This document shows, piece by piece, positions 3,612 through 23,938 of a stretch of DNA of 64,000 bases. The notes under the pieces were generated by a model. The model saw only the letters and a list, made by a program, of their open reading frames with translations. It did no database searches and was not told the origin of the DNA. The first letter of the stretch is position 1, and each line of letters starts with the position of its first letter. The stretch covers positions 186,001-250,000 of the forward strand of contig NC_015658.1 of assembly GCF_000217715.1 (NCBI RefSeq), in the 5' to 3' direction. The DNA is from Halopiger xanaduensis SH-6 (GTDB taxonomy: Archaea; Halobacteriota; Halobacteria; Halobacteriales; Natrialbaceae). Position numbers and translations under genes: made by a program.

Positions 3612-3735
3612 GCGAACGACTCCCGGGCGCTCGTGCTTAGTCGTTCTCACTCATGATTGAATTCCGGATTCTCGAGCACCGGATCTGACACGTCGGCACC
3701 TATTACTGGGTCCGCGACCAACCGCGGTGCAAGAG

Positions 3736-6450
3736 ATGACGCGGATGCAACCAACAGACCTGAGAACCGAGTTCGTCCGGACCCCGCTGGGCATCGACGA
3801 GCGGAATCCGGACCTTCGCTGGCGAGTCGACACCGACCGTCGCGGCGCGGCTCAGACGGCCTACCGCGTGCTCGTGACCTCGAGCCGCGACCGCCTCGCC
3901 GACGACGAGGGCGACGTTTGGGATACGGGTAAGCGCGAGAGCGAGACGCCGTCTGTCACCTACGACGGGCCACCCCTCGAGGCCGGAACGGACTACTACT
4001 GGAAAGTCCGCGTCTGGGACGACGACGAGGCCGGCGCGTGGAGCGAGCCCGCGATGTGGGGCACGGGCCTGCTCGAGGCTGATGATTGGGAGGCAAACTG
4101 GATTCGGCGACCCGAGGAAGTCGACGTCGACGCCGTCGACGACTTCGAACGCGGCCAGTTCACCTACGCCCGCCGCGAGTTCGCGCTGCCCGACGACGCC
4201 GACGTCGAGCGGGCTCGTGCGTCGGTCGCCGCCTGCCACCAGTACGAACTGTCGGTCAACGGCGAGCGGGTCGACCGCGGCCAGTCGTTTTCCTACCCCG
4301 ACTACCACTACTACAAGACCGTCGACCTGACCGACGCGCTCGAGGCGGGCGAAAACGCCGTCGGCGCGCTGTTCACGTGGCAGGGCGAGGGCCAGGGCCG
4401 GCCGACCGCCGAGCCCGGCTTCATCTGTCAACTCGAGATCGACCTTGCCGACGGAAGCGAGCAGACGATCGTCACCGACGATTCCTGGCGGCTCCGCGAG
4501 GCCGAGTGGGACGAGGACGCGCCGCTGCGAAACGACGAAATCGGCGAGGCGGTCGAACTCGTCGACGGACGCGACGAACCTCGCGGCTGGGCTGAACCCG
4601 ACTTCGACGATACCGACTGGACGGCGGCCGGCGTCGTCGGCGAGCATCCGACCGATCCCTGGGAGCGACTCATCGCGCAGAACCGCGAGGTCGTCAGTCG
4701 GGAGATCGAGCCCGAATCGATCACGCAGGTCGACGACGAGACGTACGTCGTGGACTTCGGGCGGGTCTACACCGGCCTCCCGGAGCTTCGGTTCGCGGAC
4801 GGCACCGCCGGCCACCGCGTCGGGATGCGAGCGGGCTATCACCTGCGCGAAGACGGAACCGTCCACGAGCAGGAGGGAACCCAGTGGACCGACATGCGCT
4901 ACGCGTACGTGCAACGCGACGGCGCGTGTACGTTCCGGCCGTTCAACTACCTCGGCGTCCGCTATCTGCAGCTCGAGTCGCCCGGCGAGGAGTTCAGTGC
5001 TGATCAGGTGTCGCTGCGGGCGCTCCACAACGAGGTACCAGACGAGCGCGCGGCGACATTTGCGTGCTCGGACGAGACCCTCGAGGAGGTCTTCGAACTC
5101 GCGCGCCACTCGGCGCTGTACGGCAGCCAGGAGCAGTTCATCGACACGCCGACCCGCGAGAAGGGACAGTTCCTCATGGACGCGTTGAACATCTCGGCGG
5201 TCTCGCGGCGCGCGTTCGGCGAACGAGCGCTGACGCGACAGGCGATTCGGGAGTTCGTCCGGTCGCACTACCGCTACTGGGAAGAAGAGGGACGGCTGAG
5301 CGCCGTCTACCCCAACGGCGACGGCAAGCGCGACATCCCCGATTTCACCGAAGGGTTCCCCGACTGGGTCTGGCAGTACTACCGCGAGTCGGGCGACCGA
5401 GCGATCCTCGAGACGGCCTACCCGGTGGTACAGGCGGTTGCCGACTACGTTGCCGAGCACGTCGACGACGAGACCGGTCTCGTCACCGAACTCTCGGGCG
5501 GCGAGGGCGGCCCCTACGAGGAGGGGATCGTCGACTGGCCGCCGGAGATGCGCTACGGCTACGACCGCGACTGGCCCGCCCGAACGACGGTCAATATCCT
5601 CGGCGCCAACGCGTTCGACAAAGCGGCGGCCATCGCGGATGCCCTCGAGCGGCCCGACGAGGAGGTCGAGACGTACCGCGACCGAAAGCGGGCGCTCGAG
5701 GCCGCAATCGGAGCACACCTGTTCGACGGCGACCTGTTCGTCGACGGCTGCGACGCGACCGACGCCAGCGAGGGTCGCTCCCAGCACGCCAACGCGTTCG
5801 CGCTCGCGTTCGGACTCGTCCCCGACGACGCGATCGACGGGGTCGCCGACCACATCGCCGAGATGGGCATGCAGATGGGACCGATGATGGTCCCGCGGCT
5901 ACTCGAGGCGCTCGAAGCGGCGGATCGAACCGACGCGCTGATCGAACTGCTCACGAACGCCGAGGACGACGGTTGGGCGAACATCCTCGCGCAGGGCGGG
6001 ACGTTCACCTGGGAGACCTGGCACTGTCGCGATCCGGAGCTGCCGACCGACGAACGGCAAAACCGCAGCGAGTCCCACGCGATGGGTGCGCCGGTGCTCG
6101 TGAGTATCCAGCGGGCCCTGCTCGGCGTCCGTCTCGCCGATAGGGAGGGGTCCCACCTCGAGATTCGGCCGGCGATCGGCCACCTCGAGCACGCGTCGGG
6201 TCGAGTCCCGACCGAACGCGGCCGCGTCGAGGTTGCCTGGTCCAGATCGGACGGGAAATGCGACCTCGAAGTGACGGTGCCGTGGAACGCGACCGCCTCG
6301 ATTTCGCTTCCGTCCGACGCCGAGACCGACCGAGTCGGCGTGACGCCAGTCGCCTCGTCATTACCCGACGGCGTCTCGGACGTACAGCGCGGGGACGGAT
6401 CGATCGTCGTCGACGTCGAATCCGGGACGTATCAATTCACGCTCGAGTGA
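3736..6450 (+). CDS. GH78 alpha-L-rhamnosidase
   Basis: Removes terminal alpha-L-rhamnose from rhamnogalacturonan fragments or glycosides. Seen: about 904 residues with the usual GH78 order. An N-terminal fibronectin-like domain (PDLRWRVDT...AYRVLVTS...YYWKVRVWDD) is followed by a beta-sandwich with SVNGERVDRG and a (alpha/alpha)6 barrel from about residue 420. The barrel has DTPTREKGQFLMDA near residue 470, the equivalent of the family D-C-P-x-R-D-E acid motif, and EGFPDWVWQYY. A C-terminal beta domain carries the HASGRVPTERGRVEVAW stretch. No signal peptide is seen, so it is probably cytoplasmic. The start is uncertain between GTG 3727, ATG 3736 and ATG 3745. L-rhamnose released here would suit the mutarotase at 12084. 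Divergent from the GH28 gene. Confidence 0.92.
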   Translation: MTRMQPTDLRTEFVRTPLGIDERNPDLRWRVDTDRRGAAQTAYRVLVTSSRDRLADDEGDVWDTGKRESETPSVTYDGPPLEAGTDYYWKVRVWDDDEAGAWSEPAMWGTGLLEADDWEANWIRRPEEVDVDAVDDFERGQFTYARREFALPDDADVERARASVAACHQYELSVNGERVDRGQSFSYPDYHYYKTVDLTDALEAGENAVGALFTWQGEGQGRPTAEPGFICQLEIDLADGSEQTIVTDDSWRLREAEWDEDAPLRNDEIGEAVELVDGRDEPRGWAEPDFDDTDWTAAGVVGEHPTDPWERLIAQNREVVSREIEPESITQVDDETYVVDFGRVYTGLPELRFADGTAGHRVGMRAGYHLREDGTVHEQEGTQWTDMRYAYVQRDGACTFRPFNYLGVRYLQLESPGEEFSADQVSLRALHNEVPDERAATFACSDETLEEVFELARHSALYGSQEQFIDTPTREKGQFLMDALNISAVSRRAFGERALTRQAIREFVRSHYRYWEEEGRLSAVYPNGDGKRDIPDFTEGFPDWVWQYYRESGDRAILETAYPVVQAVADYVAEHVDDETGLVTELSGGEGGPYEEGIVDWPPEMRYGYDRDWPARTTVNILGANAFDKAAAIADALERPDEEVETYRDRKRALEAAIGAHLFDGDLFVDGCDATDASEGRSQHANAFALAFGLVPDDAIDGVADHIAEMGMQMGPMMVPRLLEALEAADRTDALIELLTNAEDDGWANILAQGGTFTWETWHCRDPELPTDERQNRSESHAMGAPVLVSIQRALLGVRLADREGSHLEIRPAIGHLEHASGRVPTERGRVEVAWSRSDGKCDLEVTVPWNATASISLPSDAETDRVGVTPVASSLPDGVSDVQRGDGSIVVDVESGTYQFTLE

Positions 6451-6645
6451 GGAGGAAACGGTGCTGACGGGTTCGCCGCAGCGCAAGTCGACTCCGTTTA
6501 GTACGTCACAGACCTAAACGAGACGGCAATACTCGGGCCGTCGTCAGTCTCAAACACCGATTTTCGTTCTCCGGCAGGATACTGCTGAGAGCAGTGGTGT
6601 TTGTTTGGCCATAACAAACATTACATGTGATAAAAAATTAATGTC

Positions 6646-9162
6646 ATGGTTCAGGACGAGCTGTGGGCCCGCGTACGGGAGAGACTACCCGGGAAGGGGC
6701 TCCTTCCGGATCGAGTGCGGAGCCGATATCTGGTGAAATTTGGCGTCGTCATCACGATCATCGCGATTCTGTTAATCGCGTCGTCTGCGTATTTTTATCT
6801 GGACATCACGAGTCAGATCACTCGCGACGTGCAGGCGGAGATGGAGGACAATACGGCCCACAACGCCGACGAGTTTGAGGGATGGATCTCCGACTACGAG
6901 ATGACGGCCAATACGATAACGCGCTCCAAAGAGTTCGTCAACGGCTCCGAAGCGAAAATCGGCAGCGAATTACGAAAGCATCGACGGACGCTCCCCGCCG
7001 AGTCACAGGGGGTCCACTATTTCGATTTGGGGTCGAAGGAGGTCGTTCGAAGTACGAACTCACAGATGAACGGCGAACGGATCGCCAATCTCGACGTGCA
7101 AGTATACGATCGCAGCGGTGCCGCTACCACCGAACTCGCCTATGACGAGATAGACAGCCGGGAGTTTGCCGGCGGGTTCACCGACGTGTACGAACGGAAC
7201 GGCGAGAAGCTGCTCGCGTTCATCTCGCCGATCGCCGGCTCCGACGACCGTGCGGTGATGATCGAGGTCGACATCGCCGACGTCGCGTACTTGTTCGACG
7301 GTACCGTCGACGAGGAGGAAATCCGAGTCTTCGACGCGTCCGCCGAGACGACCGTGTACGCCGAAAACGAGAGTGCGATCCTCGCGTCCGGACTGGGATA
7401 CGCCGGCGCCGAACTCCCGGACGGCGACGCCGGGGCCGGAATATTCGAACACCAGTCGACGGACAGCGTACTCTCCTACGCGACGGTCGGCGAGACCGAC
7501 TGGGTCGTCGTCTCCCGCGCGCCGCAATCGACCGCCTACGCGCTCGCCGACAGCGTCGCCACGTCGTTGCTCCTGTTGATCGCGATCGCGATCGCCGGCT
7601 TTCTGGTCGTCGGGGCGACGCTCGGTCGATCGACGGCCGCCGCGATGACCGACCTCGCGACCAACGCCCGCGCGCTCTCGAACGGCGACACGGCGATCTC
7701 GATCAGCGACGACGACCGGATCGACGAAGTCGGCCGCGTTCGCGGGGCGTTCGCCGACACCCGCGACTACCTCGAGACCGCAGCCGACCAGGCCGACGCG
7801 ATCGCCCGACAGGAGTTCGACGATCCGGTTCTCGAGGCCGACGTTCCCGGGAAGCTCGGCGACTCGCTCGCGACGATGCGCGCCGATCTCGAGCAGTCGA
7901 TCGCGGATCTCGAACGCTCCAAGACCGAAGCCGAGACCGCGCAGGCGGACGCCGCCGAGGCCCGCCGCGAGGCCGAACGACTCGCCGATCGTCTCGAGCA
8001 GAAGGCCGCCGAGTTCGGCGACGTCATGTCGAAGGCCGCCGAGGGCGACCTCACCCAGCGGCTCGACGAGGACGTCGACAACGACGCGCTGGCCGAAATC
8101 GCGACCGCGTTCAACGAGATGCTCGAGGATATCGAGGGGACGATCGTCGACATCCAAACGCTCGCCGAGGACGTCGACCGAACCAGCGCGGACGTCACCG
8201 AGCGCGTCAGCGAGATCGAACGGGCCAGCGACGAGGTAGGCCGGTCGACCGAGGAGATCGCGTCCGCCGCGTCCGACCAGAGCGAGCGGTTCCAGGCGGT
8301 CTACGGCGAGATGAACGACCTCTCGGCGACCGTCGAGGAGATCGCCTCCACCGCCGGCGACGTCGCAACCGTCTCCGCGGCGGCCGCCGACCGCGCCGAC
8401 GACGCCAGCGAAGCGAGCATTGAAATTCGCGCCGAGATGAAACGGCTCGAGGATCGCGCCGAAGCGATCACCGAGCAAGTCGGCCAGTTAGAATCGGAGA
8501 TGGGCGAGATCGGCGACATCGTCGATCTGATCGACGACATCGCCGGCCAGACGAACTTGCTGGCGCTGAACGCCTCGATCGAGGCAGCAGGCGCCGGCGA
8601 AGAAGGCGACGGATTCGCCGTCGTCGCGAACGAGGTCAAGAGCCTCGCCGAGGAGACTGGCGAAGCGACGCAGGAAGTCGACGCGTTAATCGACGCGGTC
8701 CAGGCGTCGGTCGAAGAAACCGTCGTGGAGATCGACCGCATGCGCGAGCAAGTCGATGACGGCGTCGACGTCGTCGAGGACGGCATCGACGCGATCGACG
8801 CGATCGCCGACCAGGTCGAGACGGCGAACGACAGTATTCAGTCGATCGACGAGGCGACCGACGAGCAGGCTCGAGCGAGCGAACGGGTCGTCACCATGGT
8901 CGACGAGGCCACCGAGATCAGTTCTGAAACGGAGTCCGAAACGGAGAACGTCGCAGCTGCCGTCGAGGAACAGACGGCCTCGATCTCGGAGGTCTCTTCG
9001 GGGACGCGCTCGCTGACCGAGATGGCCGACGACTTGCGCGTCTCGTTAGCCGAATTCGACGTCGACGAGAGCGAAGGCGATGCCAACGCGATTGACGCCG
9101 ATGAAGGTGCGGATATCGTTTTGAAACACGATTCTGACGAGAGCGGCAGCGAGGGAGAGTGA
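6646..9162 (+). CDS. Methyl-accepting chemotaxis transducer (membrane, extracellular Cache-like sensor)
   Basis: Signal transducer passing ligand binding to CheA/CheW. Seen: 838 residues. TM1 is about residues 30-52 ([19 protein letters not shown]) and TM2 about 306-328 ([19 protein letters not shown]). The roughly 250-residue segment between them is extracellular, with a FDLGSKEV... [19 protein letters not shown] pattern resembling double-Cache sensors. A HAMP region follows, then a second HAMP-like segment, then a long coiled-coil signalling domain. The hairpin tip [20 protein letters not shown] sits near residues 630-650 and is diagnostic of the family. An acidic C-terminus lacks an obvious CheR pentapeptide. 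It stands alone between GH78 and the DUF2264 gene, so sensing of a plant sugar or oligosaccharide is a reasonable but unproven guess. The ATG at 6646 follows an A+T-rich promoter. Confidence 0.93.
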
Positions 9163-9251
9163 GAACTCGCTGTATCGACCGTTTCGTGCCGGGCGTTGGC
9201 TCTGGACGCTCGAGTCCTGACGATGGGCGCTCGTGATTGAACGGCGCGGAA

Positions 9252-9260
9252 GAATTAACT
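9252..9260 (+). promoter_or_regulatory. TATA-like promoter of the DUF2264 gene
   Basis: GAATTAACT lies about 28 bases before ATG 9284, consistent with a leaderless transcript. Confidence 0.4.
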
Positions 9261-9283
9261 GTTCGCCTCGAGAGTCGGCCGGT

Positions 9284-11137
9284 ATGAACGCCGTTACAGA
9301 CAATCCGCTGGAGACCCGCGCCGACGTGCAGCGCGCGGTCCGACAGCTGGTCGAACCGCTCGAGACACATCGTAGTCCCGGCGGCGCCCGCCTGAAGCCG
9401 AGTGAGACGGGCGCCTGGTTTCCGGACACCGCGGCGGAACTCGAAGGCTTCTCGCGGCCGCTGTGGGGACTCGTCCCGCTCGCCGCTGGCGGCGGCGAGT
9501 TCGACGGCTGGGAGCGGATCCGCGAAGGGCTGCGAAACGGCACGGACCCGAACCATCCGGAATACTGGGGATCCGCGGGCGATTACTCCCAAAAGCACGT
9601 CGAGACGGCCGCGATCGGCTTCGGCCTCGCGCTCGCTCCCGACCGGCTCTGGGACCCTCTCGACCCGGAGGCGAAAGACCGCGTCGCGGCGTACCTCCGG
9701 CAGGTCGACGACGCGTCGCTGCACGACTGTAACTGGCTGTTCTTCCGGATACTCGTTCACCTTGGCCTCGATGGCGTGGACGAAGCGTACGACCGCGAGC
9801 TATCCGAGGAGACGCTCGATCGCCTCGAGTCCTTCGCCGCGACCGAGGGCTGGTACGCCGACGGACCGCCCGAAGAGAGCGCGCGCGATTACTACATCCC
9901 CTGGGCGATGCACGCCTACGGCCTCATCTACGCGGCGCTGGCCGACGGTGACGACGAGCGGGCCGATCGCTTCCGCGAGCGAGCCGCCGAGTTCGCCCCG
10001 GAATTTCGCCACTGGTTCCGCGAGGACGGTGCCGCGCTCCCTTACGGTCGGAGCCTCACCTACCGATTCGCGCAGGCGGCGTTCTGGGGCGCGCTCGCGT
10101 TTGCAGACTGCGAGGCGCTCCCCTGGAGCCAGATCAAGGGGCTGTGGCTGCGCAACCTCCGGTGGTGGCTCGAGCAACCGATCTTCACCGACGGCGGCGC
10201 CCTCTCGGTCGGCTACCGGTACTCGACGCTGAAGACGAGCGAGCCGTACAACTCCCCCAGTTCGCCCTACTGGGCGCTGAAGGCGTTCCTCCCGCTCGCG
10301 CTCGAGTCCGACCATCCGTTCTGGCAGGCAGACCCGGAGCCGCTTCCGGAGCTTCCCGAACGAACCGTCCAGCCGGAACCGGAGTTGATCGTTTGCCGGG
10401 ACCGGACCGCCGACCATCACTACGCGCTCGCCGCCGGTCAGTCGACCCACTATCGCGAGAAATACACCAAGTTCGCCTACTCGATCGAGTTCGGCTTCGG
10501 CGTTCGGGGTCGCCGCCCCGGACTCGAGGGTGCGGGCCACGACAGCGCGCTGGCGCTGAGCGAGGCGGGCCGCGAGTACCGAATCCGAGAGTCGGTCGAG
10601 GAAACTGCCGTTCGAGACGGAACGCTCTACTCGCGGTGGACGCCCTGGAACGACGTCCGCGTCGATACCTGGCTCGCGCCCGCGTCGCCGTGGCACGTTC
10701 GGGTGCACCGACTCGAGAGCGATCGACCGCTCCGCAGCGCCGAAGGCGGGTTCGCACTGCCGAAGGGTGATGACGACCGGCCGGAAAACCACGAGCACCG
10801 GACGGGTACGGGACGTGCGTGGTGTCTGACGCCCGGCGGCACGAGCGGGGTTCGCGACCTCCGAGCGAACGCCGACGGGTACGAGCGACGCGAGGGCGAG
10901 GCGGCGGATCCGGAACCGAACACGAACGTCTGCCACTCGCGAACGACTGTCCCGACGCTCGTCGGCGAGCACGAGCCCGGTACCCACTGGCTGGTGACGG
11001 CGGCGACGGCGGCTCGCGACGGGGCCGACGAGCGGTGGGAGCAGGCCCCGCAACTCGAGTCCGTCGACCCGCTCGTCGTCACCGACGTCGACGGCGCGGA
11101 ACTGCTGCGTCTCGAGCGGCCGTTCGATCCGGCATAG
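9284..11137 (+). CDS. DUF2264 family protein, probable glycoside hydrolase (GH154-like)
   Basis: About 617 residues matching the DUF2264 layout. An N-terminal alpha-helical toroid has FSRPLWGLVPLAAGGG, YWGSAGDYSQKHVETAAIG, CNWLFFRILVHLGL and ARDYYIPWAMHAYGL. An all-beta C-terminal half follows (HYREKYTKFAYSIEFGFGV and onward). As I recall, DUF2264 proteins were placed in CAZy family GH154, where glucuronidase activity on plant glycans has been reported; that link is from memory. No signal peptide is seen, so cytoplasmic action is inferred. The start at ATG 9284 is backed by a TATA-like GAATTAACT at 9252-9260. A start at 9233 would place translated sequence over that promoter. Its place between a rhamnosidase and a CBM9-like gene suggests unsaturated or simple uronic-acid removal from pectic fragments. 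Confidence 0.85.
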   Translation: MNAVTDNPLETRADVQRAVRQLVEPLETHRSPGGARLKPSETGAWFPDTAAELEGFSRPLWGLVPLAAGGGEFDGWERIREGLRNGTDPNHPEYWGSAGDYSQKHVETAAIGFGLALAPDRLWDPLDPEAKDRVAAYLRQVDDASLHDCNWLFFRILVHLGLDGVDEAYDRELSEETLDRLESFAATEGWYADGPPEESARDYYIPWAMHAYGLIYAALADGDDERADRFRERAAEFAPEFRHWFREDGAALPYGRSLTYRFAQAAFWGALAFADCEALPWSQIKGLWLRNLRWWLEQPIFTDGGALSVGYRYSTLKTSEPYNSPSSPYWALKAFLPLALESDHPFWQADPEPLPELPERTVQPEPELIVCRDRTADHHYALAAGQSTHYREKYTKFAYSIEFGFGVRGRRPGLEGAGHDSALALSEAGREYRIRESVEETAVRDGTLYSRWTPWNDVRVDTWLAPASPWHVRVHRLESDRPLRSAEGGFALPKGDDDRPENHEHRTGTGRAWCLTPGGTSGVRDLRANADGYERREGEAADPEPNTNVCHSRTTVPTLVGEHEPGTHWLVTAATAARDGADERWEQAPQLESVDPLVVTDVDGAELLRLERPFDPA

Positions 11138-11269
11138 CCGATTTCGCCGTATCCGTTCGACGCCGATCAAACCGCAGCCGCGGCCGATTCGTCGCCGCAC
11201 AGCCTTCGAGCCGACGCTGCGAGAGCGCCGAGATTTATGCCGGTCGCAGCAGAATTCGAATTCATATCG

Positions 11270-11947
11270 ATGAAGACGTACACCATCGCTCGCGCGACCG
11301 ACGACGTCCCACTGACCGGCGCGATCGAAGGGACGGTTTGGGAGGACGTTCCCGCGGTCGATCTCGAGGAGTTTACCTGGCACGACGGCGGCTCGGATCC
11401 GAAACTGACGACGACCGCTCGCGTCTGTTACGACGAGCGAGCGCTGTTCCTGCAGTTCCACGCCGAAGACGACGATATCACCGCGTCGGTGACCGAACTC
11501 AACGGGCCGACGTTCGAAGACAGCTCAGTTGAACTCTTCGCCGATCCGACGCCCGACGCGGACTCGCGGTACTTTAACTTCGAACCCAACTGCTGCGGTC
11601 AGTTCAAACTCGCCTGGCAGGAAGCAGGCTGGGAGGAACGAGGCATCGGCCGGACGCTGATCGATCCCGACCTCGCCGAGCGGATCGACGTTCGAACGTC
11701 CGTTCCGGGACCGACGAAAGAATCGCGGCCGGACGACGAGGACTGGTGGCTCGCCGCCAGGATTCCCTTCGACGTCCTGAGCGACGTGACCGGGCTCGAG
11801 ATCCGACCGACGTCGGGGACCGAGTGGCGAGGAAACTTCTACCGCAGCGGGCTTCCGGATCACCAGAAGTCCACGTGGAATCCGATCGAGAAAGCAACTC
11901 CCGACTACCATTCGCCGGAGTATTTCGGTCGGCTTCGATTCGAATGA
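11270..11947 (+). CDS. CBM9-like carbohydrate-binding protein
   Basis: Small beta-sandwich protein of 225 residues resembling the CBM9-like/DOMON group. Seen motifs are PLTGAIEGTVWEDVPAVDL at the start, LTTTARVCYDERALFLQFHAED (the usual A-x-V-x-Y-D-x-x-x-L-Y-L-x-F core), FEDSSVELFADP, YFNFEPNCCGQFKLAW, and a C-terminal TEWRGNFYRSGLPDH. No catalytic residues and no signal peptide are apparent, so a cytoplasmic sugar-binding role is inferred, perhaps holding oligosaccharides. ATG 11270 was chosen because a TATA-like TTTATG lies about 33 bases upstream; an in-frame start at 11237 would cover the promoter. It follows the DUF2264 gene on the same strand by 132 bases, with its own promoter. Confidence 0.75.
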   Translation: MKTYTIARATDDVPLTGAIEGTVWEDVPAVDLEEFTWHDGGSDPKLTTTARVCYDERALFLQFHAEDDDITASVTELNGPTFEDSSVELFADPTPDADSRYFNFEPNCCGQFKLAWQEAGWEERGIGRTLIDPDLAERIDVRTSVPGPTKESRPDDEDWWLAARIPFDVLSDVTGLEIRPTSGTEWRGNFYRSGLPDHQKSTWNPIEKATPDYHSPEYFGRLRFE

Positions 11948-12053
11948 TGGCAATTCCATTGTGAGCGAGATCGCGTCGTCTCGCCAAGATGGAGTTTGCC
12001 GCCCGTGACGAAGACGGACTGACCGGGTGTGACTGTGGTCACGGACCCCAACG

Positions 12054-12061
12054 TCTATACT
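12054..12061 (+). promoter_or_regulatory. TATA-like promoter of the rhamnose mutarotase gene
   Basis: CTATACT lies about 27 bases before ATG 12084, so the transcript is probably leaderless. Confidence 0.45.
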
Positions 12062-12083
12062 GTCGTGAGAAAACGGTCTTCGT

Positions 12084-12389
12084 ATGGAGCGAATCGCGTT
12101 CCACCTGGAAATCGTCGATGGACAGCGAGACGCGTACCGTGAGGAACACCAGAACGTTCCGGACGCACTCGAGGAAGCGTACCTCGAGTCCGACGCCGGG
12201 ATCGAGACCTATTCCGTGTTCGAGCGCGACGGCCACGTCTTCGGCTATCTGGAACTCGAGGATCCGGACGTTATCAAGGAGATCATGGAAGAAAGCGATG
12301 CACAGGCGGACTGGGACGAAGTCATGGACGGCATTCTCGAGCCGGATGACGGCGATATCTGGATGGACGAAGTATACCGAATGAAGTGA
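12084..12389 (+). CDS. rhaM: L-rhamnose mutarotase
   Basis: Interconverts the alpha and beta anomers of L-rhamnose so that released sugar enters catabolism. Seen: 101 residues, the usual length of the RhaM/YiiL family (about 100). Typical features are AFHLEIVDGQRDAYREEHQNV (the conserved Y-x-x-x-H region with the catalytic His near residue 22), GIETYSVFERDGHVFGYLELED in the middle, and the closing DIWMDEVYRMK. It has its own promoter and lies a few kilobases from the GH78 rhamnosidase. This makes L-rhamnose a likely product of the locus. No rhamnose dehydrogenase, kinase or aldolase is seen nearby, so the rest of the pathway must lie elsewhere. Confidence 0.88.
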   Translation: MERIAFHLEIVDGQRDAYREEHQNVPDALEEAYLESDAGIETYSVFERDGHVFGYLELEDPDVIKEIMEESDAQADWDEVMDGILEPDDGDIWMDEVYRMK

Positions 12390-12515
12390 TCCGACGTCGA
12401 CGTGCAGTTGTCGCGACCGTGCGGAGATCGATCACGGTTAGCCGACAACGGATAGTTTGTTCCAACGGAAACGTGGTAGTCGCGTCCGCTCCGGCGTCGA
12501 TTTCGGCCGGACTAC

Positions 12516-15647
<3,132 letters not shown>

Positions 15648-15975: not shown

Positions 15976-17046
15976 ATGGCTATGGAAACATTACACCCGT
16001 ATGATGGATTGGAGTGGGATGAGCACGAGCAACAGCTAACGCAGTTTCACACGCACGAACCACGGAACACGATACGCGACGACACATGCATTCACGAGCC
16101 GAGCATCGATGCAGAAACGGTTCCGATCGACGATCTTGGGAAAAACAATCTCTCACCAGCGTCTTCGCCCAGAACGTTATTGAAGAAGTATAGAAATGTG
16201 GGATACACCGTCTTCTCGCTAACAGAGCACGAATACTACGTAGAGCGGTCGAAGTACAAGAACGTCCCCTACGAAGAGATGCCCGAGCGACTCGAGCAAA
16301 CGAGTTGGCCTTGGGCGAAGTGGAACGTCGATCCGGCGGAATTAGGTGTGGTCGCGCTTCCGGGAACCGAATTACGGGCATCGCATCATGGTTCGCTGCA
16401 CGATGTGATCGGCCTGGACACGGATATCGGACACGGACGACAGGCCTCGATGACTGCGCTACTCGAACGTATCGCGGATCAGGACGGCCTGGCAATTCTC
16501 CCACACCCTTCGAAGTACAACGAAGCGTCGGATTACGAGCGATACGTCTCTGTATTCGAAGCCGCTGATGTCCTCCTCGGGATGGAAATCTTCAACGGGA
16601 ACGATCGGTACCCGAGTCGCGCCCTGTGGGATCGATTACTTACGCACTTCGGACCCGAGCGACCGATCTGGGCGTTCGCCGGCGATGACTACCACGGCCG
16701 CGCCCGCCCGCAAGACGGTAAACGGTTCAACCGGTCACGGATCGTCTTGCTCCTGTCTACTCATTCGAAGGCTGCCGTCCGAGAGGCATTGACTGAGGGA
16801 CGGTTTTACGTACAGCACAACGGAGATCATCACGCACCATTCATAGACGCTATCGAAGTAACGAACGACGCAATTACCGTTGATTCCCCCGATGCAGTGG
16901 GAATCGAGTGGGTCGCTGACGGCGAAGTCGTCGCGACCGGAGAAACGATTCTGAACGATCGACTCGAGGATCGGACGTACGTACGGGCAGAAGTCCACGG
17001 AGACGGGCGAGCCGTTAGCTGTACTCAGCCGTTCTATCCGGTCTGA
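15976..17046 (+). CDS. PHP-type metal-dependent phosphoesterase
   Basis: 356 residues with the metal-ligand pattern of PHP (polymerase and histidinol phosphatase) domains. Visible are FHTHE (H25, H27), SLTEHEYY (E84, H85), PGTELRASHHGSLHDVIGL, ILPHPSKYNE, GMEIFNGN and FAGDDYHG. These would bind two or three divalent metals and cleave a phosphoester. The C-terminal 80 residues form a small beta domain (DGEVVATGETILNDRLEDRTYVRAEV shape). No signal peptide. Start ATG 15976 follows A+T-rich promoter sequence. The gene opens a module that continues with an IMPase-family gene on the same strand and, convergently, a second IMPase gene plus an ECF transporter. Substrate unknown; a phosphorylated small molecule handled by the module is the natural guess. 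Confidence 0.75.
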   Translation: MAMETLHPYDGLEWDEHEQQLTQFHTHEPRNTIRDDTCIHEPSIDAETVPIDDLGKNNLSPASSPRTLLKKYRNVGYTVFSLTEHEYYVERSKYKNVPYEEMPERLEQTSWPWAKWNVDPAELGVVALPGTELRASHHGSLHDVIGLDTDIGHGRQASMTALLERIADQDGLAILPHPSKYNEASDYERYVSVFEAADVLLGMEIFNGNDRYPSRALWDRLLTHFGPERPIWAFAGDDYHGRARPQDGKRFNRSRIVLLLSTHSKAAVREALTEGRFYVQHNGDHHAPFIDAIEVTNDAITVDSPDAVGIEWVADGEVVATGETILNDRLEDRTYVRAEVHGDGRAVSCTQPFYPV

Positions 17047-17135
17047 ACGAGAATGCAGACCGGGTTTACTGGAGATATATAGGCCACCATAGAACTCATA
17101 GCAAACGAATAGATGGTTACCCGAGCACGAACCGT

Positions 17136-17900
17136 ATGGCCCGGCATCCCCACCTGTGGGCTGCGCTGTTAGCTGCTCGTCGCGGTGCTGAAGCGCTTGC
17201 AGTTTGGGACGAACACCATCCTAATTGCACGGCAGACCGAGAAACGAACGAAACCTGTGATGTCGCCACCGAAAAAGCAATTTTAACCGAACTCGAGCGT
17301 CACTTTCCCGAACACAACGTGATTTCGGAGGAGAGCTATCCGGAGTTCTCGACGAAACCGCGATGGATCGTCGATCCGCTGGACGGACGGATTAACTATC
17401 TCAACGGGATTCCCCACTATTCCGTGTCGATCGCGTTCGAGGGGACAGGGGCAGCGGACGTGAGCGTCGTCTATCATATCCCTTCGGATCGGCTATTTAC
17501 AGCTATTGAGGGGCAGGGCGCGTACCTGAACGGACGCCCGATTTCAGTATCGGAAACGGCCACACTCTCGGATGCGCTGGTGGTCACAGGGTTCGATCCG
17601 ACGACGATCGAGTCACAACACTTCGACCAGTTTCGGTCGCTGCTCGACCGAACTCAAGGAGTGAGACGGTTCGGATCCGCCGCTACTGAACTCGCAATGG
17701 TTGCCGACGGGCAGTTCGACATTTTCTTCGAGCGAGAGCTCAGCGTCTGGGATACGGCCGCGGGAATCCAACTCGTCGAGGAGGCAGGCGGCGAGATCAC
17801 CCGGATCGAGCGAGTGAACGGGAGTAACCGCGAGATGGTCCTCGCATCGAATCCACAAATTCACCAGGAAGCCGTCTCACTCATCTCCTCGAGTAGTTAG
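17136..17900 (+). CDS. Inositol-monophosphatase-family protein with altered active site
   Basis: 254 residues, normal for the IMPase/fructose-1,6-bisphosphatase/CysQ family of metal-dependent sugar-phosphate phosphatases. Seen: VISEES (E65, metal ligand), VDPLDGRINYLNG (D80, D83), AIEGQGAYLNG, FGSAATELAMVADGQFD, and SVWDTAAGIQLVEEAGG with its metal-binding Asp. The oddity is residue 85: the family signature D-P-L/I-D-G-T has Arg where the Thr that helps activate water normally sits. The enzyme may therefore have changed substrate or lost phosphatase activity. It lies 89 bases after the PHP gene and runs convergent to a second, canonical IMPase gene only 30 bases away. Confidence 0.85.
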   Translation: MARHPHLWAALLAARRGAEALAVWDEHHPNCTADRETNETCDVATEKAILTELERHFPEHNVISEESYPEFSTKPRWIVDPLDGRINYLNGIPHYSVSIAFEGTGAADVSVVYHIPSDRLFTAIEGQGAYLNGRPISVSETATLSDALVVTGFDPTTIESQHFDQFRSLLDRTQGVRRFGSAATELAMVADGQFDIFFERELSVWDTAAGIQLVEEAGGEITRIERVNGSNREMVLASNPQIHQEAVSLISSSS

Positions 17901-17930
17901 GGATAGTCGAGTGGCGACTCGATCGACGAT

Positions 17931-18749
17931 TCAGTTCGTGTTGGGGTTCGCTGTTTCGTTTCGATAGAGCTGACGTAGGTCGGCGTGAACGCGGCCGTTC
18001 GAGGCGATAATGCCTACGTCCCGCTCCTCGGCCGTGAAATTCACCGGCGATCCGTCCCAATCGGTTACCTTGCCACCGGCTTCCTCGACGAGCAAACTCC
18101 CCGCAGCAACGTCCCAGGGCGATGTGTACTTGTCTAGAAAACACTCGAACGTTCCGTTCGCAACGAACGAAAGATCACACGCGCCGGCTCCGAGTTGGCG
18201 AAGCCCCCGCGACCGGTCAGGTGGAAAGAGGTGCTGATACACCCGACGGAGCCGGCAGTCATCGATAATGGGCGGCGAGATACCGAATAGCACGGCACTC
18301 TCCGGAAGCGAGTCAGCCGACGACACGGATATGCGTTGTCCGTTCCGTTGCGCACCACTACCCGCAACTGCCGTGTACGTCTCCTCGCGTTGGGGATGGA
18401 CGACGACACCGACGACCGGTTCTCCCTCGTCCAGCAACGCGATTGACGCGCAGTAATGTTCGAAACCGGCAACGTAATTTGCGGTCCCGTCGAGCGGATC
18501 GACGACCCACGTGAATCGCGCCGCTCCATCTCGTCCGGTCTCTTCGCTAATAATCGCGTGATCCGGGTAGGCCTCCGTGATGATCGAGCGAATCGTCCGC
18601 TCGGCGCGGAGATCGATCTCCGTTACCAGCGTCCCCTCTCGTTTCTGCGTCATGTCGTAGTCGGACTGAAAGTTCGCTCGGAGTAGCGTACTTGCCTCCG
18701 TCGCTGCTGCCTTCGCTGTCGTCAGGAATTCGTCGAATGCAGTTCCCAT
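17931..18749 (-). CDS. Inositol-monophosphatase-family phosphatase (canonical motifs)
   Basis: 272 residues. Seen: AIISEETG (metal-binding Glu), WVVDPLDGTANYVAG (full D-P-L-D-G-T-x-N signature), AVAGSGAQRNGQ, LGAGACDLSFVANGTFECF and SPWDVAAGSLLVEEAGG. All catalytic positions are present, so it should be an active Mg-dependent phosphatase of inositol, sugar or nucleotide monophosphates; which one cannot be told. It is the last gene of the minus-strand half of the module (EcfS, EcfA, EcfT, IMPase), about 76 bases after ecfT, suggesting co-transcription with the transporter. Together with the altered paralogue at 17136 it forms an active/altered pair. Confidence 0.88.
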   Translation of the reverse strand: MGTAFDEFLTTAKAAATEASTLLRANFQSDYDMTQKREGTLVTEIDLRAERTIRSIITEAYPDHAIISEETGRDGAARFTWVVDPLDGTANYVAGFEHYCASIALLDEGEPVVGVVVHPQREETYTAVAGSGAQRNGQRISVSSADSLPESAVLFGISPPIIDDCRLRRVYQHLFPPDRSRGLRQLGAGACDLSFVANGTFECFLDKYTSPWDVAAGSLLVEEAGGKVTDWDGSPVNFTAEERDVGIIASNGRVHADLRQLYRNETANPNTN

Positions 18750-18825
18750 GTGTTATGATGCTCTTTCTCGTGTCCGTATTCGGATTCGACTGGACTCGAT
18801 TAGATTGATACAAAACGACGAGTGG

Positions 18826-19641
18826 CTACACGAACGGAAGAATAATACCCGCGACGATGATCGCTGAGCCGCCCATGAAGAGCACGTCAAACCGGCCGAC
18901 GCGCAGGTCTCCTAACTGTAACTCACGGCTTTTATCGTTCTCTAACGAATGAGAGAATCCTCTCGTTTCGAGCGCTTCGACCGTCACGCGACTTCGTTTT
19001 GCGACGTCGAAGATCATCGGATAGAACGCCCTGATCGAGAGTCGGATCAGATACATGTAATATCGCCATTTGAAGCGACCGGGCGATTCCGGTGCACGGC
19101 TTCGAAGACGGTAGACGTTCACCGTCTCGTGGTACTCCTCGATGAGAACGGGTAACATCCGGTATCCGTAACTGATCGCGAACGTGAACTGGCGCGGAAT
19201 ACCGATGCTCATGAATGCGCGGCTGATGTCCTTCGGGGACATCCCGGAGAACACGGCAATTGACGTCACCGAGATGATCGTCAGCTTCGTCGTGTACGGA
19301 ACCAGCGCCATCGCACTCCGTACGAAACTCCCGCCCATCAGCACCGTTACGAACGCGTACAAGAGCACGTTCGTGACGACGCCGAACGCGAGGAGCGCAA
19401 TGAGGTACTTGCTGACTCGGGATACCACCGCGAGGACGGACACGAACGCGAGCAGCCCACCGAGAATCCGCATATCGTAAAACAACCACGGAATGACGAG
19501 GAATGCGGCGTACCACGCGAGTAGCACGCGAGGATCGAGTCGATTGAAGATCGTTCCCTCGTTGTCGTACGCAGTGCGGAGCAGATCCTGCTTCAACGAC
19601 TCGATCGACAGCGCGTCGCGAAACTCTTCCTGGTAGCTCAT
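18826..19641 (-). CDS. ecfT: ECF transporter transmembrane component (EcfT)
   Basis: 271-residue integral membrane coupling protein of an energy-coupling-factor importer. Seen: membrane segments near residues 40-58, 62-78, 82-105 and 110-135, and a final one at 253-270 (LFMGGSAIIVAGIILPFV). The long cytoplasmic region has ISRAFMSIGIPRQFTFAISYGYRMLPVL and RVTVEALETRGF, matching the conserved coupling helices whose A-R-G-type motifs contact the ATPases. Overlaps the ecfA stop by 4 bases, so it is translationally coupled. The complex imports a micronutrient or small organic substrate captured by the S component. Confidence 0.85.
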   Translation of the reverse strand: MSYQEEFRDALSIESLKQDLLRTAYDNEGTIFNRLDPRVLLAWYAAFLVIPWLFYDMRILGGLLAFVSVLAVVSRVSKYLIALLAFGVVTNVLLYAFVTVLMGGSFVRSAMALVPYTTKLTIISVTSIAVFSGMSPKDISRAFMSIGIPRQFTFAISYGYRMLPVLIEEYHETVNVYRLRSRAPESPGRFKWRYYMYLIRLSIRAFYPMIFDVAKRSRVTVEALETRGFSHSLENDKSRELQLGDLRVGRFDVLFMGGSAIIVAGIILPFV

Positions 19642-21359
19642 CGGTTGCCCCCCTCGAGTTCCGGTGGGTGTCCGGAGAGTCTATCAGCCAACTCAGAGAC
19701 GGTCATCGCAGGCGGCGAGATATCGAGCTCGTCGCTCAGTCGAACGACTTGCGGTGCCCGTAGGTTACACCGTTCGAGACGATCAAGGTCGGAAAACACG
19801 TCTCTCAGCGTCCCGTCCGTTTCGATGGCACCGTCGTTCAAAACGATCACCCGCGTCGCCCATTCGGCGACCAGTTCGAGATCGTGTGTGGCAATGATAA
19901 CTGTCTCGACGCGGTTTTCAGCGCGGTTTATCGTCTGTTCGACTTCACGGCGACTCGCTAGATCGAGGCTCCCAGTCGGTTCGTCGAACAATACGATCGA
20001 TGGGTCTGTCGCTAGCCCAATCCCGAGCGATGCGCGACGCTGCTCGCCGACGCTCAACAGTCGCCCGTCACGGTCCTGTAGTTGTTCGAGATCCAGAAAC
20101 TCGATCACCTCGTCGACTCGTTCCTCGACGTCCGCAACGTCACGCTCTCGTAAATAATAGGAAATATCTCCTCGGACCGAGTCCTGAATGAACATGTCCT
20201 CCGGGTTTTGATCGACGTAGGTGATGTCCGCTGCCAGTTCTTCCGGAAGAACATCCTCGGTGTCGGTTCCGTTGATAGTTACGCGCCCAGCATCGGGCTT
20301 CTCGATACCGGTAATCAACCGTAGCAGCGTCGATTTCCCGGCACCATTCGCACCGACGAGAGCGACCCGTTCGTCAGGATAAAGGTCCAACGAAAAGTCT
20401 TCCAGTACCCGTACATCACCATCGCGGAGCGTCGTATACCCGTGGTCGACGTGCTGGAACGAGATGACCGGCTCGTCTCTCGGTTGGCCTCGAGCAATTT
20501 CGTAGTCGTCCGGTTGCTCTGTTTCGTGCTCGAGCGACCGATACCGAGTGACCGCATCGGCGTACGTCGTCGGGGGATTCCCGTCGTCTTCGACCGTTCT
20601 GGCGACTCGAGTTACCTGTGGTGGATGAATACGATGTTCTCGTAGTTCTTCGATTCGATTGAGCCCTTCGTCGGTCGGTCGCTTCCATTTGACGGTGCCG
20701 TCAGAAACCAGTGCGACGGTATCGCAGTACTCGGCGATGAATTCGGTATGGTGCTCGATCGTGACGATCGTTATTCCGTTCTCGTTTAGCGCCTGTAACC
20801 GTTCGTACGTTTCGTGTGCACGGACGGGATCGAGTTGTGCTGCCGGTTCGTCGACGACGAGGATGTGCGGATTCATCGTCAATGCTGCACCGAGGGCAAC
20901 CAGGTGCTGTTGACCACCGCTCAACTCCCATATGAACCGCCCATCGACCGTTTCGATGTCTAACTGTGAGAGCGTGTTGAGTGCTCGCTCGCGGTAATCG
21001 TCTCGCCCGTAATTGACCGGCCCGAACGTCAGTTCGTCGTAGACGGTCGGCGTTACGAGCTGATTTTCGAACTCCTGAAACACGTAGCCGACATTGCGGG
21101 AAAGGTCTGCAACGGACGCATCACGCGTATCCTGACCGGCGACACGTACTTGCCCCTCGAACTCGCCCTCGAAGAAGTGGGGGACGAGTCCGTTGAACGT
21201 TTTACACAGCGTCGTCTTTCCGCTCCCGTTTCCGCCCAGGATAGCGATAAACTCGCCGCGATCGATGCGCAAATCAGCCTTCTCTAGCGTCGGTTCGTCA
21301 ACCCCCGGATATCGGAAGGTGACATCCGACACGTCGATCGCTGTCTCTGTCATGCTCAC
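19638..21359 (-). CDS. Fused double ATPase of an ECF transporter (EcfA-EcfA')
   Basis: 573 residues with two complete ABC ATPase domains in one chain. Domain 1 has Walker A GGNGSGKTT (about residue 42), the Q-loop in VFQEFENQL, signature LSGGQQ and Walker B VVDEPAAQLDP. Domain 2 has Walker A GANGAGKST (about 336), VDQNPEDMF, an unusual signature LSVGEQR and Walker B LFDEPTGSLD. The QEFENQ and QNPEDMF Q-loops are characteristic of ECF ATPases. Position between the S component (6 bases upstream) and ecfT (4-base overlap) confirms the assignment. Fused ECF ATPases are common in archaea. Confidence 0.92.
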   Translation of the reverse strand: MSMTETAIDVSDVTFRYPGVDEPTLEKADLRIDRGEFIAILGGNGSGKTTLCKTFNGLVPHFFEGEFEGQVRVAGQDTRDASVADLSRNVGYVFQEFENQLVTPTVYDELTFGPVNYGRDDYRERALNTLSQLDIETVDGRFIWELSGGQQHLVALGAALTMNPHILVVDEPAAQLDPVRAHETYERLQALNENGITIVTIEHHTEFIAEYCDTVALVSDGTVKWKRPTDEGLNRIEELREHRIHPPQVTRVARTVEDDGNPPTTYADAVTRYRSLEHETEQPDDYEIARGQPRDEPVISFQHVDHGYTTLRDGDVRVLEDFSLDLYPDERVALVGANGAGKSTLLRLITGIEKPDAGRVTINGTDTEDVLPEELAADITYVDQNPEDMFIQDSVRGDISYYLRERDVADVEERVDEVIEFLDLEQLQDRDGRLLSVGEQRRASLGIGLATDPSIVLFDEPTGSLDLASRREVEQTINRAENRVETVIIATHDLELVAEWATRVIVLNDGAIETDGTLRDVFSDLDRLERCNLRAPQVVRLSDELDISPPAMTVSELADRLSGHPPELEGGNR

Positions 21360-21365
21360 GGCTGT

Positions 21366-22226
21366 TTACGCGGAGTGTTTTGCGCGCTGCCAGACGACGA
21401 TCGCGACGAGCGCAGCCACGACGATCGGGATGACAATAAACATCTCACCGTAGGCATCCATGAATTCGGGCTCCCACACAATATTCAGTCCGAAGCCAGC
21501 TTCCTCGGCCGCTGCAAACCCGAACGCGAGGGGGAACGCGAGCAGTACGGCGAGTGCTGCTTTCCACGAGAAGCCACGTACCATGGATGCTCCTCGTGTC
21601 CCCTTGTACGGTTCCATTCCCATCAGCGGCTCAATCTTCCCGTGGAGTTTGGGATACAGATAGAGCGCCGGAATGACCCCGAAGATGATTCCCGTAATCA
21701 CCATCTGCGTGATGAAGTCGACACCCTCGAGAACGAGTATGCTCTCGGGGAGTCCCGGCACTGCTTCCAGTTCTTCAACGCCGATGTACACCTTCCCGAT
21801 ATCGACGAACATAGCGAGGAACTCGTTGAGTCCCTCGGCAATGAGGACGACTGCGGCGAGCTGACGGCGGTTTTTCGGGTCCTGGAACAGCAGCGCCGCG
21901 AAAAAGAAACACGTCGAGACGAGCAGTAGATCTTCCATCACCCCGAGTCCATTAAAGTCGCCTAATAGAATGTCCTCGAAAACAATTTCCCCCATCGGAA
22001 CCGCAAGTGCGGCCCAAAAGGTTCGAAACAGCAATACCAGCACGATTGGAATAAATATAAAGTCACCAACTCCCAGTTCCAACGGTCCGACGTCGAATTC
22101 GGGTAATACCTCTGTAATTGCGTATTGCAGTCCACTGAGGGACATGACGAAAATGAACACCGTCATATCCCGTTGACCAAAGCTGAACCAGTTCGTATTC
22201 TCCGTAGCCATCTCTGACATACACAT
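21366..22226 (-). CDS. Probable substrate-binding (S) membrane component of the ECF transporter
   Basis: 286 residues and very hydrophobic, with roughly seven or eight membrane segments. Examples are TVFIFVMSLSGLQYAITEVL near 22-41, VGDFIFIPIVLVLLFRTFW near 52-70, LLLVSTCFFFAALLF near 100-114, ITQMVITGIIFGVIPALYLY near 173-192, one near 225-243 and one near 262-281. It is first in the operon, 6 bases before the ECF ATPase, where S components usually sit. It is longer than the usual 180-200 residues of S components, and I recognise no known vitamin- or metal-specific signature. The partner phosphatases hint at a polyol or sugar-like substrate, but that is inference. A TATA-like sequence near 22256-22270 precedes ATG 22226. 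Confidence 0.7.
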   Translation of the reverse strand: MCMSEMATENTNWFSFGQRDMTVFIFVMSLSGLQYAITEVLPEFDVGPLELGVGDFIFIPIVLVLLFRTFWAALAVPMGEIVFEDILLGDFNGLGVMEDLLLVSTCFFFAALLFQDPKNRRQLAAVVLIAEGLNEFLAMFVDIGKVYIGVEELEAVPGLPESILVLEGVDFITQMVITGIIFGVIPALYLYPKLHGKIEPLMGMEPYKGTRGASMVRGFSWKAALAVLLAFPLAFGFAAAEEAGFGLNIVWEPEFMDAYGEMFIVIPIVVAALVAIVVWQRAKHSA

Positions 22227-22304
22227 CCGTGGTCGGCAGATATCGGTTTGAAGTTTGATATTATTTATATATCTGAGGATAGAGGTACATAGATCACTAC
22301 ATAG

Positions 22305-22535: not shown

Positions 22536-23051
22536 CTACGACGATTGGCGGCGTACTTCAGCGATCGTGTCGGGAACCTCGTCGATATGTTCGATTGCGA
22601 CCTTCAACAGGGCGTCGTGGATCTCCCTCGTCTCCTCGTCCCGAATCCCCATTCGACGGAGTTCGGGCGTGACAGTAATTCCGAGTTCGTCCTCGAGTTC
22701 GTTCCACGTCTCGTCACGAGCGTACAGTGGTTTCTGTCGCACTTCGCTGTATTCGAACGCCGGGCCGGTCTCTGCAGGAGACTGCTGTTCTTCTTCGGTA
22801 CCGTCGCTCGTCGTCGCGTCGTTCGGCTCGTCTCGTTGTGACGACTGACTCGAGTTAGTGTCGTCGTCGCTCGGTTCCGATGAGTCCGATGCCGTTGTTT
22901 CGGTCGTCGATGTCGCAGCATCCGCGTCGACGGAGTCTGTGGATTCCGCTGCGGACTGGTCGTCGTCCGAATCCGACACTGATTCCGATTCCGACTCGGA
23001 CTCCGTCGACGGCTCGTCGTCCGCTTTGAGGTCGTCGAACGGATTGCTCAT
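22536..23051 (-). CDS. ParA partner protein: acidic low-complexity N-terminus plus small C-terminal domain
   Basis: 171 residues. Residues about 10-90 are almost entirely Ser, Asp, Glu and Thr (for example STESESESESVSDSDDD), a disordered acidic tail. The C-terminal 75 residues (EVRQKPLYARDETWNELEDELG, RRMGIRDEETREIHDALLKVAIEHIDEVPDTIAEVRR) look folded and helical. The start overlaps the parA stop by 4 bases (ATGA), so the two are co-translated. By position it should be the centromere-binding adaptor of a type I partition system, replacing ParB. I see no ParB nuclease domain and no confident ribbon-helix-helix, so the DNA-binding claim is inference. Confidence 0.75.
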   Translation of the reverse strand: MSNPFDDLKADDEPSTESESESESVSDSDDDQSAAESTDSVDADAATSTTETTASDSSEPSDDDTNSSQSSQRDEPNDATTSDGTEEEQQSPAETGPAFEYSEVRQKPLYARDETWNELEDELGITVTPELRRMGIRDEETREIHDALLKVAIEHIDEVPDTIAEVRRQSS

Positions 23052-23938
23052 CGATCGATCCCTCCGTTGACGACGATGTCAGCCAGTTCTTCGTAACACG
23101 GGATCTGATCGCTTTCCGAGTCGTAGTCCTGCAACGGTTGATTGTGCTGGAGCGAGCGGGACAATGCGGATCGGTGTCGGATCCCCGGCTTCGGAGCATC
23201 CATCTCGCCGGCGTCGATCGACTCGAACTCTTCGGCCGTGATTCGGGCAAAGTCCGGCACGGCCTCCTGCAGCGGCTGGCCGGGATTGACTTCGTAGGTC
23301 GCCGTGTTCAGGTTCTCGAGAAGTTCGCGATCTTCGGTCTGCTGGTCGATTCGATCGCCGAGTTTGTTCGGCACGACGGACAGCACCTCCACGTCGATGT
23401 ACTCGCGCGCCGGTTCGATCAACCGCTCCATCGTTCGCTTGTAGCCGCCGATCGCGCTCGAGCCGGGTTCGATCGGGATCATGACGTTGCCCGTCGCGAC
23501 GAGCGCGTTGTTGTTGAGCATCCCCGGATACGCCGGGCAGTCGAAGACGACGTAATCGTAGACGTCGCCGAGCAGGGGATCGACGATCTTCGATTTGACG
23601 CGGGCCGACCCCTGCATCGCACCGGCGAGATCCTTCTCGACGTCCTCGAGGGTGTTCGACGACGGGAGCAGATCGAAGCCGTGGTCCGTCGGACGGATCA
23701 GATCCTGCGGGGTAGCGTTGCCCTCGAGGATGACGTCGCCGAGATTGATATCGCCCTGGTAGGCTTCCTCGTATCCCAGCCCGTTCGTCGCGTGGCCGTT
23801 CGGGTCGAGGTCGGCGAACAGCGTGTCGCCGCGCTCGGCGAGCTGTCGCGCGAGGTTCATCGCGGTCGTTGATTTGCCGACACCGCCTTTCAGGATCACG
23901 ACGCTTACGGCGCGTGGCTCGGTCGTTGTTGTCTCCAT
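23048..23938 (-). CDS. parA: ParA family partition ATPase
   Basis: 296-residue ATPase of the ParA/MinD/Soj group that moves replicon DNA before division. Seen: deviant Walker A KGGVGKSTT at residues 17-25, Walker A' FADLDPNGHATNGLG (about 41-55) and Walker B DYVVFDCPAYPG (about 128-139). The C-terminal extension is acidic and helical. The lack of a long N-terminal HTH makes it the short Soj-like class. Transcription starts from an A+T-rich, repeat-filled region upstream, so autoregulation by binding of the partner protein to those repeats is plausible. Its presence suggests the window belongs to a plasmid, megaplasmid or secondary chromosome. Confidence 0.92.
   Translation of the reverse strand: METTTTEPRAVSVVILKGGVGKSTTAMNLARQLAERGDTLFADLDPNGHATNGLGYEEAYQGDINLGDVILEGNATPQDLIRPTDHGFDLLPSSNTLEDVEKDLAGAMQGSARVKSKIVDPLLGDVYDYVVFDCPAYPGMLNNNALVATGNVMIPIEPGSSAIGGYKRTMERLIEPAREYIDVEVLSVVPNKLGDRIDQQTEDRELLENLNTATYEVNPGQPLQEAVPDFARITAEEFESIDAGEMDAPKPGIRHRSALSRSLQHNQPLQDYDSESDQIPCYEELADIVVNGGIDR

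Follow-up and report, generated by a model that had tools for sequence, protein, structure and literature searches.

The substrates known for ECF transporters are vitamins, cofactor precursors and metals. On a contig of 436,718 bp from Halopiger xanaduensis SH-6, the genes of such a transporter lie beside those for a PHP-domain protein and two proteins of the inositol monophosphatase (IMPase) family, raising the question of what is imported and whether the phosphoesterases belong to the transporter. We addressed this question in the stretch of 64,000 nucleotides that contains these genes (hereafter the window) and in the corresponding loci of other genomes. A preliminary description of the sequence had suggested a system that imports a polyol- or sugar-like compound or processes a phosphorylated nutrient, and as a whole this interpretation is partly supported by the results presented here. 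In the literature consulted, most of it outside subscription journals, no ECF transporter is described together with a PHP domain, an inositol monophosphatase or the phosphoesterases of this module.

A predicted ECF transporter with an orphan S component

All six open reading frames of the module are found at positions 15976-22226, with the coordinates and on the strands given in the preliminary description. On the minus strand, the gene for the putative substrate-binding membrane subunit (S component; 21366..22226) is followed by the genes for a fused double ATPase (A; 19638..21359) and the transmembrane coupling protein EcfT (T; 18826..19641), and then by an IMPase gene (17931..18749). The S-A-T genes are tightly packed, with a gap of 6 bp between S and A and an overlap of 4 bp between A and T, and the IMPase gene begins 76 bp downstream of EcfT. 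The S protein comprises 284-286 amino acids, the likely start of its gene is position 22220, and the TATA-like sequence ATATAAATAA is located upstream at 22261-22270. The genes for the PHP protein (15976..17046) and an IMPase-like protein (17136..17900) are encoded on the plus strand, convergent with the S-A-T-IMPase genes. An Rfam search revealed no riboswitch at the module in the window.

In the vicinity of the module, the window contains a gene for a partition ATPase of the ParA type, accompanied by a small acidic neighbour (22536-23938), a locus whose DNA is 80-86% identical to loci on several haloarchaeal plasmids. Moreover, the plasmid-like regions 1992-15647 and 31763-63858 comprise many genes for the degradation of plant polysaccharides, among others for GH78-like, DUF2264, oligogalacturonate-lyase-like and GH2 lacZ proteins, together with two Opp-type ABC transporters.

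The EcfT protein matches the CbiQ family (PF02361, 2.7e-9) above the cut-off, and its relatives are annotated as EcfT. The ATPase comprises two ABC_tran stretches, indicating that EcfA and EcfA' are fused in one chain; it scores above the cut-offs of TIGR04520 and TIGR04521 and contains two Walker A and two Walker B motifs, as well as the motif LSGGQ in the first half and LSVGE in the second. Judged by these features, EcfT and the ATPases make the module an ECF transporter, in line with the complete importer that had been postulated before. Fused ATPases are known from dedicated ECF transporters of group II, for example YkoEDC, where S component, fused double ATPase and EcfT are likewise encoded together in one operon. 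However, the S component of the window is not assigned to the YkoE family by Pfam (no match to PF09819), and the neighbourhood of the module, in contrast to YkoEDC, includes phosphoesterase genes.

The hydrophobic segments and the operon position of the S protein are consistent with an S component, but its sequence matches none: searches of Pfam, NCBIfam and PDB yielded no family, and likewise the S proteins of the window, Niallia and Streptomyces gave nothing beyond chance in Pfam and NCBIfam and matched no described S family. In addition, we observed no profile similarity to the BioY-like proteins of relatives, though this comparison is a weak test, and the AlphaFold model obtained with an alignment of three sequences (window, Natrialba and Halopiger) reached a pLDDT of 34.7. 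By sequence, the S family is thus placed outside the named S families tested, as had been proposed, and it fell into no known vitamin family among them. The invariant charged residues of S are mostly acidic, which argues mildly against a bare phosphate ester or another strongly anionic ligand.

Distribution of the transporter genes and their partner enzymes

The genes around all haloarchaeal S matches were called and their proteins clustered, and two bacterial loci (Niallia and Streptomyces) were used for comparison. Homologues of S are present in 40 of 391 Halobacteria genomes, representing 18 of 86 genera, while a phylum sample yielded no archaeal homologue outside Halobacteria and a scan of viral contigs with the S alignment gave no match. 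Copies are also located on plasmids of Halobacterium hubeiense, Halostagnicola larsenii, Streptomyces cavourensis and Niallia taxi. The order S-A-T is constant in all 40 haloarchaeal and in both bacterial loci, and all 41 homologues of S are followed by A and T. This conservation indicates that the module is more than a chance assembly.

The preliminary description had regarded the six genes as one group with an IMPase as the coupled enzyme. The exact six-gene set is rare, being limited to the window genome and Natrialba aegyptia, where alone an IMPase corresponding to 17931-18749 is positioned downstream of S-A-T. A related grouping, however, is found in many genomes. A ComB-like protein (PF04029) is encoded near S-A-T in 35 haloarchaeal loci, within six called genes in 34 of these and at a distance of approximately 3.5 kb in L061. 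With ComB or beside S-A-T, 19 loci contain a HisJ-like PHP protein and 14 an Nfo/CbiR-like TIM barrel, and in three loci the ComB-like protein is the lone partner. In L059, which is located at a contig edge, the TIM barrel is the only partner visible. The combination of an IMPase with a CehA-like PHP protein and no adjoining ComB is restricted to four of the S-A-T loci, namely those of the window, of Natrialba aegyptia and of two genomes that belong to one additional genus, and the window genome contains no ComB at all. The widespread unit consists of S-A-T, a phosphomonoesterase-like protein and a metallo-phosphoesterase protein, the former being in most cases a ComB-like protein, not an IMPase, and combined with PHP or TIM. 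In Niallia, S-A-T is followed by a PHP gene and an RpiR/SIS regulator gene faces the cassette, and in Streptomyces S-A-T is preceded by genes for a double HAD hydrolase and a LacI regulator.

At the genome level, a ComB protein of the close type is present in 37 of 40 S-positive genomes (in one of them, G318, the copy carries a stop codon) as compared to 21 of 351 S-negative genomes, with a Fisher p of approximately 3e-33 that is not corrected for relatedness. The repeated re-association of the partners provides better evidence than this statistic. About ten changes of enzyme set are placed on the S tree, and the changes forced by well-supported branches amount to at least five for ComB with PHP, at least three for ComB with TIM and at least two for IMPase with PHP, the partners being arranged in many gene orders and orientations around S-A-T. 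The non-random tie between importer and phosphoesterases that had been suggested is therefore borne out by the repeated partner pairs, and the sequence data support a real transport-plus-phosphoesterase unit.

Two genomes of one genus (L042 and L078) share a chromosomal site, most of the genes around it being 79-94% identical. Here, the CehA-like PHP proteins are 84% and the IMPases 87% identical, whereas S, A and T are only 44, 54 and 50% identical and the cassette is inverted. In L078, one strand carries all five genes, arranged as PHP-IMP-S-A-T. These differences suggest that a distantly related importer took the place of the previous one and that the enzymes were retained.

Conservation of active-site residues

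The PHP protein of the window has no Pfam match of its own. Its assignment is based on a homologue that matches CehA/McbA (1e-13) and on profile matches to the solved PHP proteins 2anu and 7ug9, suggesting a metallo-phosphoesterase of the CehA/McbA type. The metal-site motifs HxH, H, E, H and DxH are invariant in the alignments, so that the PHP partners of the module resemble the phosphoesterases CehA/McbA and HisJ in this respect, although their scores do not reach the curated thresholds of NCBIfam's named PHP models. The TIM partner gave profile matches to MJ1311 (8.5e-24) and endonuclease IV (1.2e-6) and retains the His, Glu and Asp residues of the corresponding positions in endonuclease IV-type proteins, some of which we take to be the metal ligands. 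The metal-ligand positions of the AP-endonuclease-2-type barrels (CbiR, Nfo, MJ1311) thus appear to be kept, and the TIM barrel takes the place of PHP beside the same importer.

Both IMPases of the window are clear members of PF00459 (17136-17900, 4.1e-51; 17931-18749, 5.2e-63). The preliminary description had recognized the PHP protein and the two IMPase-family proteins correctly. The protein encoded at 17931-18749, a predicted phosphatase, contains the canonical DPLDGT version of the catalytic DPxDGT motif. In contrast, the IMPase-like protein 17136-17900, which is the one conserved adjoining the PHP gene and has homologues in L042 and L078, carries DPLDGR, and the Thr of DGT is also lost in its relatives, where DGS or DGA is found. 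The ComB-like partners, the main companions of S-A-T in relatives, belong to PF04029 (3e-24), the family of the 2-phosphosulfolactate phosphatase ComB, and show a profile match to the ComB protein 1vr0 (8e-15). They differ from ComB in that they score at most 62.9 bits against NCBIfam equivalogs with cut-offs of at least 175, and in that QF/HFST stands where solved ComB proteins have an LRAT-like motif. Since hallmark catalytic residues are missing from both the conserved IMPase-like proteins and the relatives of ComB, the textbook activities are not to be assumed. Taken together, the metallo-phosphoesterase step looks sound from the residues conserved, and the second step looks only phosphatase-like.

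Proposed function and alternative explanations

Members of the partner enzyme families use phosphates of sugars, polyols and nucleotides as substrates. We propose that the module combines an orphan S component and the other parts of a dedicated ECF importer with cytosolic phosphoesterases of its own, which would act on an imported sugar- or polyol-like compound or on an intermediate derived from it, and we give this proposal an even chance of being correct. S would capture a small polar compound, probably sugar- or polyol-like, and EcfT and the fused ATPases would power its import in the manner usual for ECF transporters. Inside the cell, the two enzymes may then take phosphate off the imported compound or off an intermediate made from it. 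The metallo-phosphoesterase of the pair would be the PHP protein in the window and a HisJ-like PHP protein or an Nfo/CbiR-like TIM barrel elsewhere; the phosphomonoesterase-like protein would be the IMPase in the window and ComB-like elsewhere. The direction of transport, the cytosolic action and the order of these steps are inferred. The substrate is probably a compound of the sugar or polyol type or its phosphoester; a ligand of this kind is favoured by the sugar-type regulators (RpiR/SIS, LacI) that adjoin both bacterial copies and by the usual substrates of the enzyme families. The hallmark residues missing from the conserved IMPase and from the relatives of ComB count against this proposal, as do the mostly acidic invariant charged residues of S.

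A broader formulation, in which the module represents a class of ECF transporters for sugar- or polyol-phosphate esters or diesters with interchangeable cytosolic phosphoesterase modules, common to haloarchaea, Firmicutes and actinobacteria, is tentative and somewhat unlikely. The orphan S family is represented in two domains of life, and its combination with swappable phosphoesterases and sugar-type regulators makes it a testable candidate for a new substrate class, and the module provides a context for assaying ComB-like, PHP and CbiR-like proteins of unknown function together.

Alternatively, the module could serve the salvage of a vitamin or cofactor precursor, for instance a corrinoid fragment, a riboside or a nucleotide-like precursor, with the phosphoesterases trimming the phosphate or nucleotide part. 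This would agree with the vitamins and metals carried by ECF transporters of known ligand and with the best NCBIfam match of the TIM partner, the cobamide remodelling phosphodiesterase CbiR (1.7e-21). However, this match remains under the cut-off (77 versus 105 bits), and the protein is missing from more than half of the loci. Given, in addition, that S matches no known S family, that no riboswitch was found at the window module and that the bacterial copies have sugar-type regulators, we regard vitamin salvage as unlikely.

The enzymes might also serve an intracellular pathway, such as the synthesis or repair of a phosphorylated metabolite, to which the importer adds an outside source or beside which it moves something else. 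ComB with PHP or TIM indeed occurs in S-less genomes as well, in six of them with an adjoining ATP-grasp-like protein. Moreover, one locus is known with and without the importer: in two genomes of another genus (L043 and L112) the SufS-IscU-ComB-PHP locus is otherwise 87-100% identical, but one of them contains S-A-T as a clean insertion-like block that the other lacks. This indicates that the importer behaves as a unit and that the enzymes can exist without it, which counts against the dedicated importer proposed above. Conversely, no haloarchaeal S-A-T without such enzymes was found, and the partners re-associated repeatedly on the S tree; an intracellular task with optional import is hence unlikely in our view.

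Finally, it is very unlikely that the PHP and IMPase genes belong to the adjacent carbohydrate cluster (lacZ, Opp-type transporters) with the ECF genes as a chance plasmid neighbour, because PHP and IMPase adjoin S-A-T in three other genomes, including the one-strand arrangement in L078, even though the window carries rhamnogalacturonan-type degradation genes and two Opp-type transporters and a further two genomes have PHP and an IMPase in the neighbourhood of an Opp-type ATPase (approximately 61% identical to one encoded in the window) with no ECF cassette nearby.

Additional observations at related loci

The uncharacterised ATP-grasp-like family is encoded near ComB with PHP or TIM in the S-less genomes of L113, L114, L115, L116, L117, L119 and L121, with two copies each in L117 and L119, and shows a weak similarity to inositol pyrophosphate kinase (E 0.13), to which we give no weight. 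The idea that this protein is an exclusive alternative to the importer was downgraded, since a genome-level search revealed the family in many S-positive genomes as well. In L118 and L122, the ComB relatives adjoin genes for PhoU-like and AbrB/PhoU-type regulators, which hints at a link to phosphate supply.

In L044, L045, L066, L067 and L072, a gene of the RdfA (rod-determining factor A) family and one for a membrane sensor kinase directly adjoin S-A-T, the pair being located on differing sides of the cassette in two separate S clades. RdfA is present in several paralogues per genome (PMC10869688). On the Niallia megaplasmid, we observed a guanidine-I riboswitch (L039:15105-15204) upstream of two small multidrug-type transporter genes.
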